Assembly (NCBI RefSeq): GCF_022808915.1
Contig: NZ_JAKZFS010000001.1
Location: forward strand, 496,001 to 560,000
Source: Fundidesulfovibrio terrae
GTDB taxonomy: Bacteria; Desulfobacterota; Desulfovibrionia; Desulfovibrionales; Desulfovibrionaceae
Reading direction: 5' to 3'
Length of the DNA: 64,000 nucleotides
The notes beneath the pieces were generated by a model. That model saw only the letters and a program-made list of their open reading frames with translations, was not told where the DNA came from and made no database searches. Positions 20,842-29,432 of this stretch are shown here, one piece after another. Position 1 is the stretch's first letter, and the number at the start of each line of letters is the position of its first letter. A program made the position numbers and the translations under genes.

Positions 20842-21326
20842 CGGGCCTCCAGGACGATTCCGTCCAGGGATGCCAGGGCTCCCTGGGGGATGACGCCCAG
20901 GATCAGGCCGTCCACGTCCTGGGAGAGCAGCAGGGTGACGGGGCGCCCCGCGTTGGCGATCAGGAGCGCTTCCAGGCCGCCCGCTCCGTCGAGGCGCAGC
21001 TTGCCCTGGCCGTTCTTGAGCGGAAAGCCCACGCCCGCCTGGGTGAAATACTCCCCCTTGTCGGTGGCCACGCGAACCCAGGCGTCCTGGGCGTCGCGGC
21101 TTACGGATACGACGGTGACCTCCAGGGCGGAGGAGCGCTGTTCCGCCATGTCCGCGGCGTGCGCCCGGCCCCACGGCGCGAGCAGGGCCAGTATGCCGAG
21201 TGACAGGACTATTCGCCGTAAGCGGCGCGACAGGGACGGCTGGCTGGAGCTTCTGGTTGAATGCGTCACGATTCTCGAATATTCGGAAGGCCGGGAATCA
21301 TCCCGAGGTTGTGTTGATATGGACAT
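20838..21326 (-). CDS. Exported protein coupled to the glycosyltransferase gene
   Basis: The mature part (after RRIVLSLGILALLAPWGRAHA) is a small beta-rich domain: EVTVVSVSRDAQDAWVRVAT, FPLKNGQGKLRLDG and a C-terminal VTLLLSQDVDGLILGVIPQG. The start is uncertain; ATG 21326 is used, but GTG codons nearer the signal peptide are possible. The stop overlaps the start of the large glycosyltransferase gene (ATGA), so the two form an operon and may act in one pathway. No family recognised. Reads divergently from the MscS-type gene. Confidence 0.6.
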   Translation of the reverse strand: MSISTQPRDDSRPSEYSRIVTHSTRSSSQPSLSRRLRRIVLSLGILALLAPWGRAHAADMAEQRSSALEVTVVSVSRDAQDAWVRVATDKGEYFTQAGVGFPLKNGQGKLRLDGAGGLEALLIANAGRPVTLLLSQDVDGLILGVIPQGALASLDGIVLEAR

Positions 21327-21360
21327 ACTCTGCAATGAGACTGCCTGTAAAAGGAAATCC

Positions 21361-23772
21361 ATGCCGCGAATACGAATATCGGGCTTTCTTCTCGTCGTCA
21401 TCACCCTTTTTGCGGTGAACCCGCACCCGGCCCGTGCCGAGGAGGGCGAGAGCTGGAAGCTCATGCTCCAGCGCAACTACGAGGAACTCCAGTATCAGAT
21501 CGACTACGTGGACGGCGTGTCCCAGAACCTGCCTGGCATGGTCAAGCAGACCCGCCAGGACCTCTCGGCCCTGCGCAAGAAGCTGGACGAGCTCATGGTG
21601 CTGGGTCGGGCCACCGGCGGCAATCCCATGGAGCTGCGGGCCATCCTGGCGGGGCTGGAGATTCTCCAGGCCCGCGTGGACGCCGTGACCCAGCCCTTCC
21701 AGAAGGCCGACACGGACCTCAAGAAATTCCAGGAGCGCCTAGCCGAACTCGAGACCGAGTTCGCCCGCCAGGCCGCCGAAGGCCCCTCCCAGGACATCAA
21801 CAAGGCCCTGGGGGATTTCCTGGGCGACCTGCGCAAGCTCAAGGGCAAGCTCGGCCGGGTGAAGACCGTGCTGGACCAGGGCTTAAGCCCCACGCGGGAC
21901 CTGCAGTCGGGCATCGGGCGCTCGGCCCAGGCCGTGACGGATCGCATCCCCCGCGCCTGGAAGGACTACTACCTCGCCCCGGGCAAGGCCTTGCTCTCCC
22001 TCGGTGCCTGGCAGGAGGCCAAGCAGCGCCTTGGCGACCCCTCCCGGTTCGCGGGAGTGTACTCGGCCTTCCTGGACGGCGGCGAAGCCCACCTGCGCGA
22101 CGTGCTGGTGCGCCTGCTGGGGCTGGCGGCTGTGCTGGTGGGCGCATCGGCCGTGGCGCTCAAGCGCCTCGGGACGCGCATCCCCGGCTTCAGGATGACC
22201 CGACCCCTGGGCTGCCTGGCCTGGCTGAGCCTGGGCGCGGCCGTGCTCTGGGCCACGTCGGGGCCTGCCTTCGTGCTGGTGCGCGCGGAGACCAGCGCCC
22301 TGGCGGAGATACTCATGGCCCGGGGCGTACTCGGCCTGTCGTGGTTCTTGCGCTCCTGGCAGTTGGGGGAGGCGGCCCCGGCGAAGAATCCGGCCGGGCT
22401 GCACTGGTGGATGTTCGCCTGCGCGGTGCTCTTGCAGATGCCCTGGATGCCCGAGGCCCTGCGCGGCGGGGCCTGGGTGGTTATCCTGGCCTTGGCCGGA
22501 TGGCTGGTGCGGCGGGCCGGGGCCAGGGCTGCCAAGGCGGCTGTGGCGGACCAGGCCGGATCGGCCTGTCTGGCCGCCCCGGCCGACGTGGTGTCGCGGC
22601 TGGCCGCGTGGTCCGGCTGGATCTATCCGGTGCTGTGCCTGCCCGCCTTGTTCGGCTGGATGAACGTGACCATGCTCGCCACCGAAGGGTGGTTCCTGCT
22701 GCTGGTCTTTTTCCAGGCCGGGCTCGGCCTGTACGGGCTGGTGGAGCGCCTTGCGGCACGGCCGTCTTACGATCTGGCCTCGGAACTGGCCAAGGGGCTG
22801 GTCGGCGGCGTGGCCCTGCCCCTGACCGCCATCAGCATGGCCGGATGCTTCCTGTTCTGGCTGTCCATGGCCATGGGCGGGCGCAGCGTGTTCTGGTCGC
22901 TGGTCAGCGCCGACGTGGAGGAGAGCGGCTTCAGCCTGGACCTGGCCCGCCTCTCGGCCATGTTCATCGGTTTCTATCTGGCGCGCGCCGCCACCCGCGT
23001 GGCCGACCGGCTCATCGCCGAGCTCCCGGCCCGGCGCCCGGACCTGGAGCGCGGCGTGCTCAACCTTTTGGAGACCCTGTCCACCTACCTGGTCTGGGGC
23101 GTCTACGTGCTCACGGCCATGCGCCTGGCCGGGGCCAGCTTCACCAGCCTAGCGGTGGTGGCCGGCGGCCTGTCCGTGGGCATCGGTTTCGGCCTGCAGA
23201 ACATCATCAACAACTTCATCTCCGGCCTGATCCTTCTTTTCGGGCGCTCGGTGCAGGCCGGGGACATCCTTCAGATCGGCGAGATATGGGGCGTGGTGCA
23301 GCGGGTGAACATCCGCAACACCATCGTGCAGACCTTCGACAACGCCACGCTTTTCGTGCCCAACTCGGACCTCATCGCCCAGAAGATCGTCAACTGGTCC
23401 CACAAGGACCGCCGGGTGCGGCGCTCCCTGGAAGTGGGCGTGGCCTACGGGTCGGACACGGCCCGGGTGCACGCGCTTCTTGTGGAGGCGGCCTCGGCCC
23501 ACCCGCACGTGCTGGCCGACCCCAAGCCCACGGCCCAGTTCACGGCTTTCGCGGACTCCTCGCTCAACTTCAAGCTGCTCTTCTGGGTGGACGACCTGGA
23601 CAACGCCGGGCGCACATCCTCGGAGATCCACATGGCCGTGGAGCGCATCTTCCGGGAGAACGGCATCGGGATTCCCTTCCAGCAGCGCGAGGTGATCACC
23701 GGCGCGCGGCCCGACCCGGAAAGGCAAATTGGCTTTGACTCCGCACCCGAAGCAGGTAGAAAAGAGCCATGA
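21361..23772 (+). CDS. MscS-family mechanosensitive channel (large, with periplasmic coiled coil)
   Basis: The 803-residue protein has a signal peptide (ISGFLLVVITLFAVNPHPARA), a periplasmic helical/coiled-coil domain (about residues 25-245), then a multi-helix membrane domain (about 245-620). The MscS core follows with the glycine-rich pore helix segment GGLSVGIGFGLQNIINNFISG and FGRSVQAGDIL, and the cytoplasmic beta/alpha-beta domain (VPNSDLIAQKIVNWSH, YGSDTARV). This is the MscK/MscM-like layout and acts as an osmotic safety valve. GGAA lies upstream of the ATG. The stop overlaps the histidine kinase start by ATGA, so both may be translated together. Confidence 0.92.
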   Translation: MPRIRISGFLLVVITLFAVNPHPARAEEGESWKLMLQRNYEELQYQIDYVDGVSQNLPGMVKQTRQDLSALRKKLDELMVLGRATGGNPMELRAILAGLEILQARVDAVTQPFQKADTDLKKFQERLAELETEFARQAAEGPSQDINKALGDFLGDLRKLKGKLGRVKTVLDQGLSPTRDLQSGIGRSAQAVTDRIPRAWKDYYLAPGKALLSLGAWQEAKQRLGDPSRFAGVYSAFLDGGEAHLRDVLVRLLGLAAVLVGASAVALKRLGTRIPGFRMTRPLGCLAWLSLGAAVLWATSGPAFVLVRAETSALAEILMARGVLGLSWFLRSWQLGEAAPAKNPAGLHWWMFACAVLLQMPWMPEALRGGAWVVILALAGWLVRRAGARAAKAAVADQAGSACLAAPADVVSRLAAWSGWIYPVLCLPALFGWMNVTMLATEGWFLLLVFFQAGLGLYGLVERLAARPSYDLASELAKGLVGGVALPLTAISMAGCFLFWLSMAMGGRSVFWSLVSADVEESGFSLDLARLSAMFIGFYLARAATRVADRLIAELPARRPDLERGVLNLLETLSTYLVWGVYVLTAMRLAGASFTSLAVVAGGLSVGIGFGLQNIINNFISGLILLFGRSVQAGDILQIGEIWGVVQRVNIRNTIVQTFDNATLFVPNSDLIAQKIVNWSHKDRRVRRSLEVGVAYGSDTARVHALLVEAASAHPHVLADPKPTAQFTAFADSSLNFKLLFWVDDLDNAGRTSSEIHMAVERIFRENGIGIPFQQREVITGARPDPERQIGFDSAPEAGRKEP

Positions 23773-24962
23773 ACCAAACCCCCTCCGACGCGGTCGGGAA
23801 GGTCTGCGCCCTCACCCTGGCCCAGGAGCGCAACCTGCTCTCTTCGGTGATCGACCAGATTCCCGACGACATCGTGATCCTGGACGCGGCGTCGTGCGTG
23901 GTGGACGTCAACCGAGCGGTCACGGACCGGCTCGGAGGGAAGCGGGAGGAATACCAGGGCAAGCCCTGCTGGGAGGTCCTGGCCGGTTTCAAGGGCATCT
24001 GCGAGCCCGAGATGGACGTGTCCCGCTGGGAGGCCGTGCGCCATGGCGGCAAAAGCGAGGAGGTCTACACCTCCGTGGATTCCCACGGGCGCATGCAGTA
24101 TTTCCGGGTGTACCTCTATCCGGTCATGGACGGCGCGGGGGCGCTCTCCCACGTGGTGGTGCTGCGCCGCGACGTCACCCAGGGCACCTACATGGAGCGC
24201 AGGCTCCAGCAATCGGAGAAGCTGGCCGCGGTGGGCGAACTCTCCACCTACGTGGCCCACGAGATAAGAAACCCGCTCTTCGCCATCGCCGGATTCGCCA
24301 ATTCGCTTCTGCGCTCGGGCTCCCTGGACGACAAGGCCCGCTCCAAGGTGTCGGTCATCCTGGAGGAATCCAACCGCCTGGACAAGATTCTGAAAAGCCT
24401 GCTCAACTTCTCCCGCCCCACCCAGGGCATGGAAGGGCAGGTGGACGTGAGCCGGGTGGCCGAGGCCACCATGGAGCTCATGTCCCTGGCCTGCCAGAAG
24501 CAGGGCATCGAGGTGCGCGTGGAGGCGGGCAACGGACTGCCCATGGTCCACGGCGACCCGGAACTCATCAAGCAGTGCATCATCAACATGGTGAAGAACT
24601 CCATGGAGGCCATGCCGGGCGGCGGCCGCATCGACCTGCGCTGCTACATGCGCGGCGACAGGGCCGTGGCCGAGGTGGCCGACACCGGCGCGGGCATCCC
24701 GCCTGAGAACCTGGACCAGGTGTTCAACCCCTTCTTCTCCACCAAGGACAAGGGGGCGGGACTGGGCCTGGCCATGATCAAAAAGATTCTGGACGAGTCC
24801 GGAGGCTCGGTCGAGCTGGAAAGCGAAGTGGGCAAGGGCACCACGGTGCGCCTGCTGCTCTCGCCGCTCATGGCCGCCGACGAGTCCGACGTGTCCGGCA
24901 AGGCCGCGCCGCGTCATGATTCCAAGTGGATCGCGGGCGTGGGAAGCAAGGAGGAGGCGTAA
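23769..24962 (+). CDS. PAS-domain sensor histidine kinase
   Basis: A cytosolic 397-residue kinase: PAS domain (about residues 22-140), HisKA with the phospho-acceptor H164 in VAHEIRNP, and HATPase with N-box (about 270-280, INMVKNSMEAMPGGG), G1 box VADTGAGIPPEN, F-box FNPFFSTKDKGAGLGLAM and G2/G3. No membrane segment, so it senses an internal cue. There is no response regulator next to it; the NifA-like activator and the REC-GGDEF protein are distant. It is joined to the MscS gene by ATGA, and rdgB starts directly at its stop, giving a three-gene operon. Confidence 0.92.
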   Translation: MNQTPSDAVGKVCALTLAQERNLLSSVIDQIPDDIVILDAASCVVDVNRAVTDRLGGKREEYQGKPCWEVLAGFKGICEPEMDVSRWEAVRHGGKSEEVYTSVDSHGRMQYFRVYLYPVMDGAGALSHVVVLRRDVTQGTYMERRLQQSEKLAAVGELSTYVAHEIRNPLFAIAGFANSLLRSGSLDDKARSKVSVILEESNRLDKILKSLLNFSRPTQGMEGQVDVSRVAEATMELMSLACQKQGIEVRVEAGNGLPMVHGDPELIKQCIINMVKNSMEAMPGGGRIDLRCYMRGDRAVAEVADTGAGIPPENLDQVFNPFFSTKDKGAGLGLAMIKKILDESGGSVELESEVGKGTTVRLLLSPLMAADESDVSGKAAPRHDSKWIAGVGSKEEA

Positions 24963-26081
24963 GTGACGCAGGTGGTGCTGGCCACGCGAAACCTTGGCAA
25001 GGTGCGCGAACTGCAGGCCATGCTGGAAGGGCAGGACATAGAGGTCCTCGGGCTGGACCGGTTCCCGGAGATCGGCGAGATCGAGGAGACCGGCGAGACC
25101 TTCGAGGACAACGCCCGGCTCAAGGCCAAGGCCGTGAGCGAGGCCACGGGCCTCATCGCCCTGGCCGACGATTCGGGGCTGAGCGTGGACGCCCTCGGCA
25201 ATGAACCCGGCGTGCGCTCGGCCCGCTACTCGGGCGAGAACGCCACCGACGCCTCGAACAACGAGAAGATCCTCGAGGCCATGAAGGACGTGCAGGGCGA
25301 CAAGCGGGCCTGCAAGTTCATCTCTGCAATCGTGGTCCACGCCCCGGACGGGCACGAGTTGGTCTTCCACGGGGTCTGGTTCGGCAGGCTCGGCCTGGAG
25401 CCCAAGGGCGACAACGGCTTCGGCTACGATCCGCTCTTCTACGATCCGGAACTCAGGCTCACCGCCGCCGAGATGACCTCCGAGCAGAAGAACTCCCGCA
25501 GCCACCGCGGCCGGGCCATGCGCGAGCTCATGAAATATTTTCCCGGCTTCGTGGACAAGCTTGCCCGCGAGGCCGCCATGACCCCCGAGCAGCGCGACTT
25601 TCGCGACAGGTACGAGGGCGTGAAGGGCTGGCTCAAGTTTTTGAGCATGGCCATGATGGGCGCGGTGCCGCTTTTGGCGGCGTTCATCGTCTCGCGCAAC
25701 TTGAAGTTCATGCAGGCCTTGGAGGCCCCCGGAGGCCCTCCGCGCGAGCTGGCCGCCGAGGTGGCCAAGGCCCTGACCCTTGAGAACGTCCTGGCCACGA
25801 TGGTGGGATTCCTGGTGTTCTGGGGCGGCATATCGCTCTACCGTCGCAGGAAGGGCGCGGTGCTCCTGGCCAAGATCGCCTGGCTGGCCGTGCCCCTGGC
25901 CAGCGGCGTGGAATACCTTGCGACCCAGTATTTCGCCTATCCCCCGAACGTCAGGGACATGGCCTCCATGGCCGCCCTGGCCAACGCCCTGCCGGGGCTC
26001 TTCGCGGCCACCATCGCTGTCTACTATCTGACCGTTTCCAAGCGGGTGAAGGCCACCTTCTTTCCGGACGGGGCTTCTTGA
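24963..26081 (+). CDS. rdgB: RdgB/HAM1 XTP/dITP pyrophosphatase fused to DUF2569-like membrane domain
   Basis: GTG at 24963 directly follows the upstream stop, with GGAGGA in front. Residues 1-200 are a complete Ham1/RdgB enzyme: VLATRNLGKVRELQ, ETGETFEDNARLKA, ADDSGLSVDALGNEPGVRS, GDNGFGYDPLF and SHRGRAM, which hydrolyses non-canonical purine NTPs. Without a stop, residues of about 205-372 continue into a four-helix membrane domain (start YEGVKGWLKFLSM, end YYLTVSKRVKATF) typical of DUF2569 proteins. The usual RdgB is near 200 residues. An internal ATG at 25578 might start a separate product, but no stop separates the parts. Confidence 0.85.
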   Translation: MTQVVLATRNLGKVRELQAMLEGQDIEVLGLDRFPEIGEIEETGETFEDNARLKAKAVSEATGLIALADDSGLSVDALGNEPGVRSARYSGENATDASNNEKILEAMKDVQGDKRACKFISAIVVHAPDGHELVFHGVWFGRLGLEPKGDNGFGYDPLFYDPELRLTAAEMTSEQKNSRSHRGRAMRELMKYFPGFVDKLAREAAMTPEQRDFRDRYEGVKGWLKFLSMAMMGAVPLLAAFIVSRNLKFMQALEAPGGPPRELAAEVAKALTLENVLATMVGFLVFWGGISLYRRRKGAVLLAKIAWLAVPLASGVEYLATQYFAYPPNVRDMASMAALANALPGLFAATIAVYYLTVSKRVKATFFPDGAS

Positions 26082-26146
26082 CAGCCGCCCGGCTTTTCGC
26101 ACACTGACCATAGCCGATTTTGACAAACTCCGACAAAGGATGAACC

Positions 26147-27970
<1,824 letters not shown>

Positions 27971-27977
27971 CCCCGAA

Positions 27978-29432
27978 GTGAAGTTCAGGACCTTTCTCGC
28001 GTTTGCCGCCGTTCTCTGGGCCGGACTGGTCCTGTTCACCGTGCCCGCCTGGGCTGAGTCCGCGCAGCCCGGGGCCAAAGACGCCGCCGCTTCCGCCCGG
28101 ACCGGCTCGAAACCGGCCGGGAAATCCGCGAAAAAGGACGCGCCCAAACCCGCCGCCGGGGCCAAGGCCCCGAAGAAGGCCGTGGTCACGGACGTGCAGG
28201 TCTATTCCGGACGCGACTATTCGCGCATCGTGCTGGTGCTCTCAGGCGAGGCCGGGCGCAAATGGCAGCTCCTGCCGCCGGACCCCAAGGACGGCGGCGT
28301 GCGCCGCCTGTATGTGGACTTGGACGATACGGTGATCAAGCCCGGGGTGCCCAGCCGCTTCGACGTGCGCGGCGACGTGGCCCGCAAGGTGCGCCTGAGC
28401 TATTTCAAGCCGGGCGTGGCCCGCCTGGTGGTGGAGGTGGAAAACCTCAAGAACCAGCAGGTGTTCGAGCTGGAGAATCCCTGCCGGGTGATCGTGGACG
28501 TGCAGGGCGAGGCCTCCAAAAAAGATCCGGCCCAGGCCAAGGGCGCGGAGAAGGACGCATCCGGGAAATCCGCCAGGGACAAGGCGGGCAAGGACGGCTC
28601 CAAGGCCAAGACCGACGGGAAGGGCGCGCAGGCGTCCGCGCCCTCGCCGGTGATGGCCGACGACGGCAAGCCCGGCTCCCCAGGCGTGAACCTGGCCACC
28701 CCCGGGCGCCGGAAGATGGCCAAGCAGCTGGTGGAGCAGCTGGGGCTCACGGTGCACACGGTGATGGTGGACGCGGGCCACGGCGGCAAGGACCCCGGCG
28801 CGCACGGCCCCGGCGGACTCTATGAGAAGAACGTCACCCTGGAGGTCGCGAAGCTCCTGGGCAAGCGCCTGGAGCACATGGGCTTCGAGGTGCTCTACAC
28901 CCGCTCCCAGGACAAGTTCGTCCCCCTGGAGGTGCGCACGGCCATGGCCAACGCGCGCAAGGCCGACCTGTTCGTGTCCGTGCACTGCAACGCGCACCCC
29001 GATCCGGGTTCGTCGGGCCTGGAGACCTATTCGCTGAACCTGGCCTCCACCGCCGACGAGGTGCGTGTGGCCGCCCGCGAGAACGCCGTGGACCCCAGGC
29101 GCATCTCGGACATGCAGAAGATCCTGGACGACCTCATGCACGCCTCCAAGCTGACCGAGTCGCGCGACTTCGCCAAGACCACGCACCAGTCGGCCCTGTC
29201 CCAGGCCCGCAAGAGCCTCAACCTGCGCGACCGGGGACTGCACGAGGCTCCCTTCTACGTGCTGCTCGGGGCCAAGATGCCCGCCATCCTGGTGGAGATC
29301 GGCTACATCACCAACCCCGCCGAGGCCGCCAAGCTGCGCGACGCCAAGTACCTGGACGGCCTGGCCCAGGGCATCGCCGACGGCGTGAAGGCCTACAAGG
29401 AACGCATCGAACGCTTCGCGGACAAGGGGTAA
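27978..29432 (+). CDS. N-acetylmuramoyl-L-alanine amidase (AMIN + Amidase_3)
   Basis: GTG at 27978 with GGAG upstream gives 484 residues: a signal peptide (FLAFAAVLWAGLVLFTVPAWA), an Ala/Lys/Pro-rich linker, an AMIN domain (about 60-170) that targets division sites, a second low-complexity linker (Lys/Ala/Asp), and Amidase_3 (about 255-480). Zinc ligands are visible: His in VDAGHGGKDPG, Glu in YEKNVTLEV, His in SVHCNAH, and the catalytic Glu in VEIGYITNP. It splits septal peptidoglycan, and the domain order matches AmiC. It follows glmS by seven bases. Confidence 0.93.
   Translation: MKFRTFLAFAAVLWAGLVLFTVPAWAESAQPGAKDAAASARTGSKPAGKSAKKDAPKPAAGAKAPKKAVVTDVQVYSGRDYSRIVLVLSGEAGRKWQLLPPDPKDGGVRRLYVDLDDTVIKPGVPSRFDVRGDVARKVRLSYFKPGVARLVVEVENLKNQQVFELENPCRVIVDVQGEASKKDPAQAKGAEKDASGKSARDKAGKDGSKAKTDGKGAQASAPSPVMADDGKPGSPGVNLATPGRRKMAKQLVEQLGLTVHTVMVDAGHGGKDPGAHGPGGLYEKNVTLEVAKLLGKRLEHMGFEVLYTRSQDKFVPLEVRTAMANARKADLFVSVHCNAHPDPGSSGLETYSLNLASTADEVRVAARENAVDPRRISDMQKILDDLMHASKLTESRDFAKTTHQSALSQARKSLNLRDRGLHEAPFYVLLGAKMPAILVEIGYITNPAEAAKLRDAKYLDGLAQGIADGVKAYKERIERFADKG

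Follow-up and report, generated by a model that had tools for sequence, protein, structure and literature searches.

The gene at positions 24963..26081 (+ strand) of the window, the 64,000-nt stretch of Fundidesulfovibrio terrae DNA analysed here, joins an RdgB/Ham1 enzyme in one open frame to a membrane domain of the DUF2569 family. The explanation that we strongly favour is that its product is a housekeeping XTP/dITP diphosphatase fused to a C-terminal DUF2569 four-helix module, and held by that module at the inner membrane. RdgB, a soluble enzyme found almost universally, breaks down damaged precursors of DNA and RNA; the members of the RdgB/HAM1 family are homodimers that hydrolyse (d)ITP and XTP to monophosphates. 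In the favoured explanation, a single polypeptide would contain both the RdgB/Ham1 enzyme of this genome and the membrane module, the RdgB domain would be cytoplasmic and would convert ITP, dITP and XTP to the monophosphates as usual, and the four helices would tether it to the inner leaflet of the cytoplasmic membrane, with both ends of the protein in the cytoplasm.

The fusion gene has 372 codons plus a stop, and starts with GTG. A strong ribosome-binding site (ggaggagg, 24950..24957, + strand, read in the sequence) ends 5 nt before the GTG, and a purine-rich SD-like sequence also precedes the GTG in G002, G003 and G005, the three congeners that carry the same fusion. The frame passes through the Ham1/RdgB XTP/dITP diphosphatase domain (24972..25538, residues 4-192), a charged linker that is predicted to be mostly helical (25539..25613, residues 193-217) and the DUF2569 domain (25614..26063, residues 218-367), and no stop codon separates the two halves. 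With both domains above their Pfam cut-offs and three congeners alike, the in-frame fusion claimed in the original prediction is genuine. On the opposite strand, a frame of 893 codons (23445-26126, - strand) is open across the upstream kinase gene and the entire fusion gene; it is probably the shadow of coding DNA with a high G+C content.

The enzyme half matched the Ham1p_like profile (PF01725; Pfam) with 214.8 bits over residues 4-192 (cut-off 22.5), the NCBIfam equivalog for XTP/dITP diphosphatase (PRK14822) with 242.5 bits (cut-off 234) and TIGR00042 with 182.9 bits (cut-off 145.35). The nearest solved relative is E. coli RdgB (PDB 1k7k; 175 bits, residues 1-190). When 30 RdgBs, the fused ones included, were aligned, 39 columns were invariant, and the invariant ADDSG, GFGYDP and SHR stretches are common to E. 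coli RdgB. Residues N10, K13, E42, K54, D69, D70, S71, F153, Y155, D156, K176, H181 and R182, which we take to be the catalytic/binding residues of RdgB, are invariant in all 30 proteins, and the same 13 residues are found in the E. coli chain 1k7k; hence, activity of the RdgB half of the fusion is very likely. One RdgB match per genome was obtained in the fused genomes, and these accordingly seem to have no RdgB other than the tethered form; the genome of the window (G000) is 96.8% complete. In agreement with what had been stated about the normal size of the enzyme (∼200 residues), the plain RdgBs of relatives measured 199-211 residues, counted from the first matched residue, at 26 of 26 loci, versus 372 in the fusion; at eight more RdgB matches outside these loci, the match ends by residue 211. 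The soluble, stand-alone form of ∼200 residues is a usual feature of the family, not a defining one, and the fusion departs from it.

The C-terminal half matched DUF2569 (PF10754; Pfam) with 29.0 bits, against a cut-off of 26.5, over residues 218-367 and profile positions 2-143 of 143; the tail on its own scored 31.3 bits. The congeners G002, G005 and G003 scored 29.0, 26.1 and 17.1 bits, respectively, i.e., two of the three (G003 and G005) fall below the curated cut-off, but with 55-62% identity their tails are plainly homologous to the DUF2569 domain of the window. The signatures GVKGWL (GxGGWL/GVKGWL) before the first predicted transmembrane (TM) helix and SKRVKxT after the fourth, read from the alignment, are common to DUF2569 proteins elsewhere. 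The alignment of DUF2569 proteins (A4) was built without L051, L060, L073, L074 and L075, which were weak or not cleanly found by the motif search, and also without L057; a mixed alignment of RdgB and DUF2569 sequences misplaced the DUF2569 rows onto RdgB and was not used.

A hydropathy scan revealed four hydrophobic segments in the tail, and a model of the DUF2569 part (23 sequences; mean pLDDT 92.7, pTM 0.84) contains four long helices with short helices before and after them. The four TM helices that had been proposed are borne out as predictions by both: they lie at 25626..25721 (residues 222-253), 25743..25841 (residues 261-293), 25857..25931 (residues 299-323) and 25944..26036 (residues 328-358), the last being followed by the signature in the form SKRVKAT. 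In a full-length model (30 sequences; pTM 0.63), pLDDT per block was 89-97 over RdgB and 32-78 over the tail, which only 4 of the sequences cover, and this model fixes no mutual placing of the two halves. Positively charged loops face the cytoplasm (the positive-inside rule). The TM2-TM3 loop carries a net charge of +4 to +5 in each of the four fusions and the C-terminus one of +2, and that of the two putative outer loops is 0 to -2; by the rule, these charges assign RdgB, the C-terminus and the TM2-TM3 loop to the cytoplasmic side. The residues immediately preceding TM1 (net charge 0 to +1) contribute nothing to this call. We infer an in-in topology with both ends cytoplasmic, which fits the site of the substrates of RdgB. 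The membrane placement put forward originally thus stands as a well-supported prediction, based on the four predicted helices, the model and charges that suit cytoplasmic ends.

Seven genomes of the genus, that of the window included, were compared. The fusion was found in four and a plain 199-residue RdgB without DUF2569 in two; no match was found in the remaining one (G006, 66% complete). Four of the six genomes with an RdgB match therefore carry the fusion. The stop-free fusions of G002, G003 and G005 (367-371 residues) are 66, 73 and 72% identical, respectively, to that of the window over the whole alignment. In G001 and G004 a stop closes the 199-residue RdgB frame, glmS follows after 62 nt, and DUF2569 is absent. 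One alternative is a sequencing or assembly error that erased a stop between two separate genes; a sequencing error near 25570 had been considered originally. None of the three fused congeners has a stop at the junction and the linker residues are conserved; since the same stop-free join recurs in three other genomes, it is due neither to chance nor to a lost stop codon. No evidence supporting such an error was found, and its probability is negligible. A TAG reported for G005 is the terminal stop of that gene and does not lie at the junction. Nor are the parts separate genes in the relatives: no congener has them in this form, and two are devoid of DUF2569 altogether.

In the six pairs of the four fused genes, pN/pS was 0.17-0.40 for RdgB, 0.42-0.69 for the linker (a 20-residue piece was used) and 0.44-0.78 for DUF2569, all below 1; the constraint on the tail in this frame is weaker but real. 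Because the DUF2569 half evolves faster than the RdgB half, a weakly selected tail is possible. The linker bears also on a reading in which one frame gives two products, the full-length protein and an independent DUF2569, made from a start near Met206 or released by proteolysis, with the fusion serving mainly for co-expression. An in-frame ATG at 25578..25580 (+ strand), with a partial SD-like gagg upstream, is present in the window and in G003, but in place of Met206 G002 has CTT (Leu) and G005 has TTC (Phe), and the linker is in frame and under constraint in every fusion. The lack of conservation of Met206 argues against an obligatory separate DUF2569 product, although all four linkers contain other in-frame start codons, and we regard the two-product reading as quite improbable.

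When 30 RdgB domains were placed in a tree, the fused proteins of the four genomes fell into one clade (support 96/92), the two plain congeners group together (100/99) beside it, and the genus is a clade (100/99); 13 of the 27 inner branches were drawn open, and many deeper forks are unresolved. The simplest account of these sequences is one gain of the fusion in the ancestor of the four; an older gain, before the split, is possible if the two plain congeners later lost the tail cleanly. In the tethered-enzyme explanation, the DUF2569 module would have been joined to the 3′ end of rdgB once, inside the genus, within a pre-existing MscS-kinase-RdgB-GlmS cluster.

The tail sequence was found in 5 of 119 relatives (window included), namely the four fused genomes and G090, the latter with a weak match (E 1.8e-4). 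The Pfam profile detected DUF2569 in 10 of the 119 relatives, G003 being missed by it, and a sample of 395 genomes of the phylum included 19 with the domain. Around 26 non-fused DUF2569 loci (L047-L052 and L056-L075, L047 and L048 being the same place; ∼1.5 kb on each side where available), no RdgB match at E ≤ 10 was observed in 518 frames. Of 398 genomes from the phylum to which a Nitrosomonas genome belongs, 33 had a DUF2569 match; the 29 matches over the cut-off were in frames of 147-250 aa, which are too short to hold an RdgB too, and six further rows were weaker (105-829 aa). No DUF2569 match was obtained in five further genomes reached via other loci. Hence, these six rows aside, no other RdgB-DUF2569 fusion was found among the DUF2569 matches of the 119 relatives and of the 395 and 398 phylum genomes. 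Searches by tblastn of 72,556 plasmid records (E ≤ 0.01) and 50,697 phage records (E ≤ 0.1) found nothing that matches the tail. Two candidate fusions were rejected: a long match in Tsukamurella (query 1-258), in which the alignment overruns the end of a separate rdgB into an LCP-family gene, and a Nitrosomonas match (L032, residues 1-243), in which a stop follows the RdgB part. A scan of contigs by exact 8-residue patterns has little power against distant fusions. In these samples the fusion is restricted to the genus, and since the surveys are samples, fusions may exist elsewhere. The fusion was not named in the literature searched, which was available in part and omits most subscription papers; the one paper in it that uses the name DUF2569 (PMC6174562) has it as a table entry.

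Upstream of the fusion gene lie an MscS-type channel ORF (longest frame 20890..23772, + strand; PF00924, PF21082), whose true start is probably downstream of 20890 and before a signal-like segment, and a PAS-HisKA-HATPase histidine kinase without a TM segment by hydropathy (23769..24962, + strand). GlmS (GATase and SIS domains; 26147..27970, + strand) begins 65 nt downstream. The MscS frame overlaps the kinase start by 4 bp, and the kinase gene ends with its stop at 24962, directly before the RdgB start codon (24963). A search of 21306-28100 revealed neither a sigma-70-like promoter nor a terminator-like site on the + strand; promoter- and terminator-like counts there were at the level of shuffled sequence. 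The co-directional, tightly spaced arrangement agrees with the operon originally proposed with MscS and the kinase, but this is not special to the fusion: the order MscS-kinase-RdgB-GlmS was seen in all six genus genomes with an RdgB (five fetched plus the window), whether fused or plain. Since the two plain congeners have the same order, the cluster does not explain the tail, and the operon was rejected as the cause of the fusion; by gene order, the cluster predates the tail or is independent of it. Beyond the genus, in five other genera, kinase-RdgB-GlmS was found in G008 and G013, kinase-RdgB in G018, RdgB-GlmS with only a weak kinase-like match in G021, and RdgB alone within the fetched stretch in G011.

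The kinase is orphan-looking. The kinase-rdgB neighbourhood is conserved past the genus (L114 in G008, L115 in G013 and L116 in G018), and the homologous kinases at these places have a longer N-terminal part of ∼130-200 residues, also with no clear TM segment. The gene order makes a functional link of the kinase with RdgB or GlmS possible.

E. coli YdgK is, we assume, a DUF2569 member. In many of the sampled cases DUF2569 is solitary (e.g., L058, L059 and L065-L071); it also occurs with a zinc-ribbon-like N-terminus (L049, sub-threshold in Pfam; L062, by eye), with TPR-like repeats (L051, sub-threshold in Pfam) or with a long C-terminal part (L050, L052 and L061). DUF2569 behaves as a promiscuous membrane module, the varied soluble partners suggesting a general use as membrane adaptor.

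The same variety of partners would suit a reading in which DUF2569 regulates or positions the pyrophosphatase by sensing the state of the membrane or by binding a partner, e.g., under oxidative or osmotic stress beside MscS, which lies in the same tight cluster. E. coli ydgK is listed among HOCl-resistance genes from an overexpression screen (PMC8228696), and ydgK is up in Salmonella under NaClO (PMC9065344), but in both sources these data are list entries only and carry little weight. Against such a role, the two congeners without a tail have the same cluster order, and fold comparison of the tail yields only generic helical bundles: Foldseek against the PDB gave 627 matches at E ≤ 10, none of the 627 at E ≤ 0.001, and the best hit of VIA-align 2 (Z 11.1) was a designed bundle, below the level that the tool advises for helical folds. 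A PDB sequence search with the tail found no relative (best E 0.67). We consider the sensor or partner role unlikely. Its fuller form, in which the sole ITP/XTP/dITP sanitiser works at the inner membrane and DUF2569 actively feeds in the state of the membrane to tune or place sanitation, is equally doubtful; if true, it would provide the first biochemical role for DUF2569, that of a membrane adaptor for cytoplasmic enzymes.

We lean towards simple anchoring, without a sensor role, as the role of the tail of the tethered enzyme. Tethering may benefit the cell or may be a near-neutral accretion of a domain; if the tail does no more than anchor, the fusion would be a modest example of a domain added to an essential-type enzyme. 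With a membrane module on its one RdgB, this lineage raises the question of whether nucleotide-pool cleaning can be, or needs to be, localised, and the fusion gives natural access to DUF2569, a family that has no known function.

Among known systems, E. coli RdgB (1k7k, 2pyu) is alike over the whole catalytic domain, with the equivalog-level NCBIfam match; the match to 1k7k spans nearly all of its 221-residue chain and stops at residue 190, whereas the fusion protein has 180 extra C-terminal residues with four predicted TM helices. KomB, the HAM1-like protein of the Kongming anti-phage system (PDB 8zsg), belongs to the same Ham1 superfamily and gave a weak match (21.8 bits). The fusion protein is closest to RdgB and lies in a housekeeping operon, with MscS, kinase and GlmS as neighbours; no Kongming partner genes were seen adjoining the fusion gene, and PADLOC (library of 2023) gave no match for the fusion protein. 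With the DUF2569 family (PF10754) the tail shares a full-length profile match, GVKGWL before TM1 and SKRVKxT after TM4, but its partner here is RdgB, whereas elsewhere the domain is solitary or is joined to other soluble parts.
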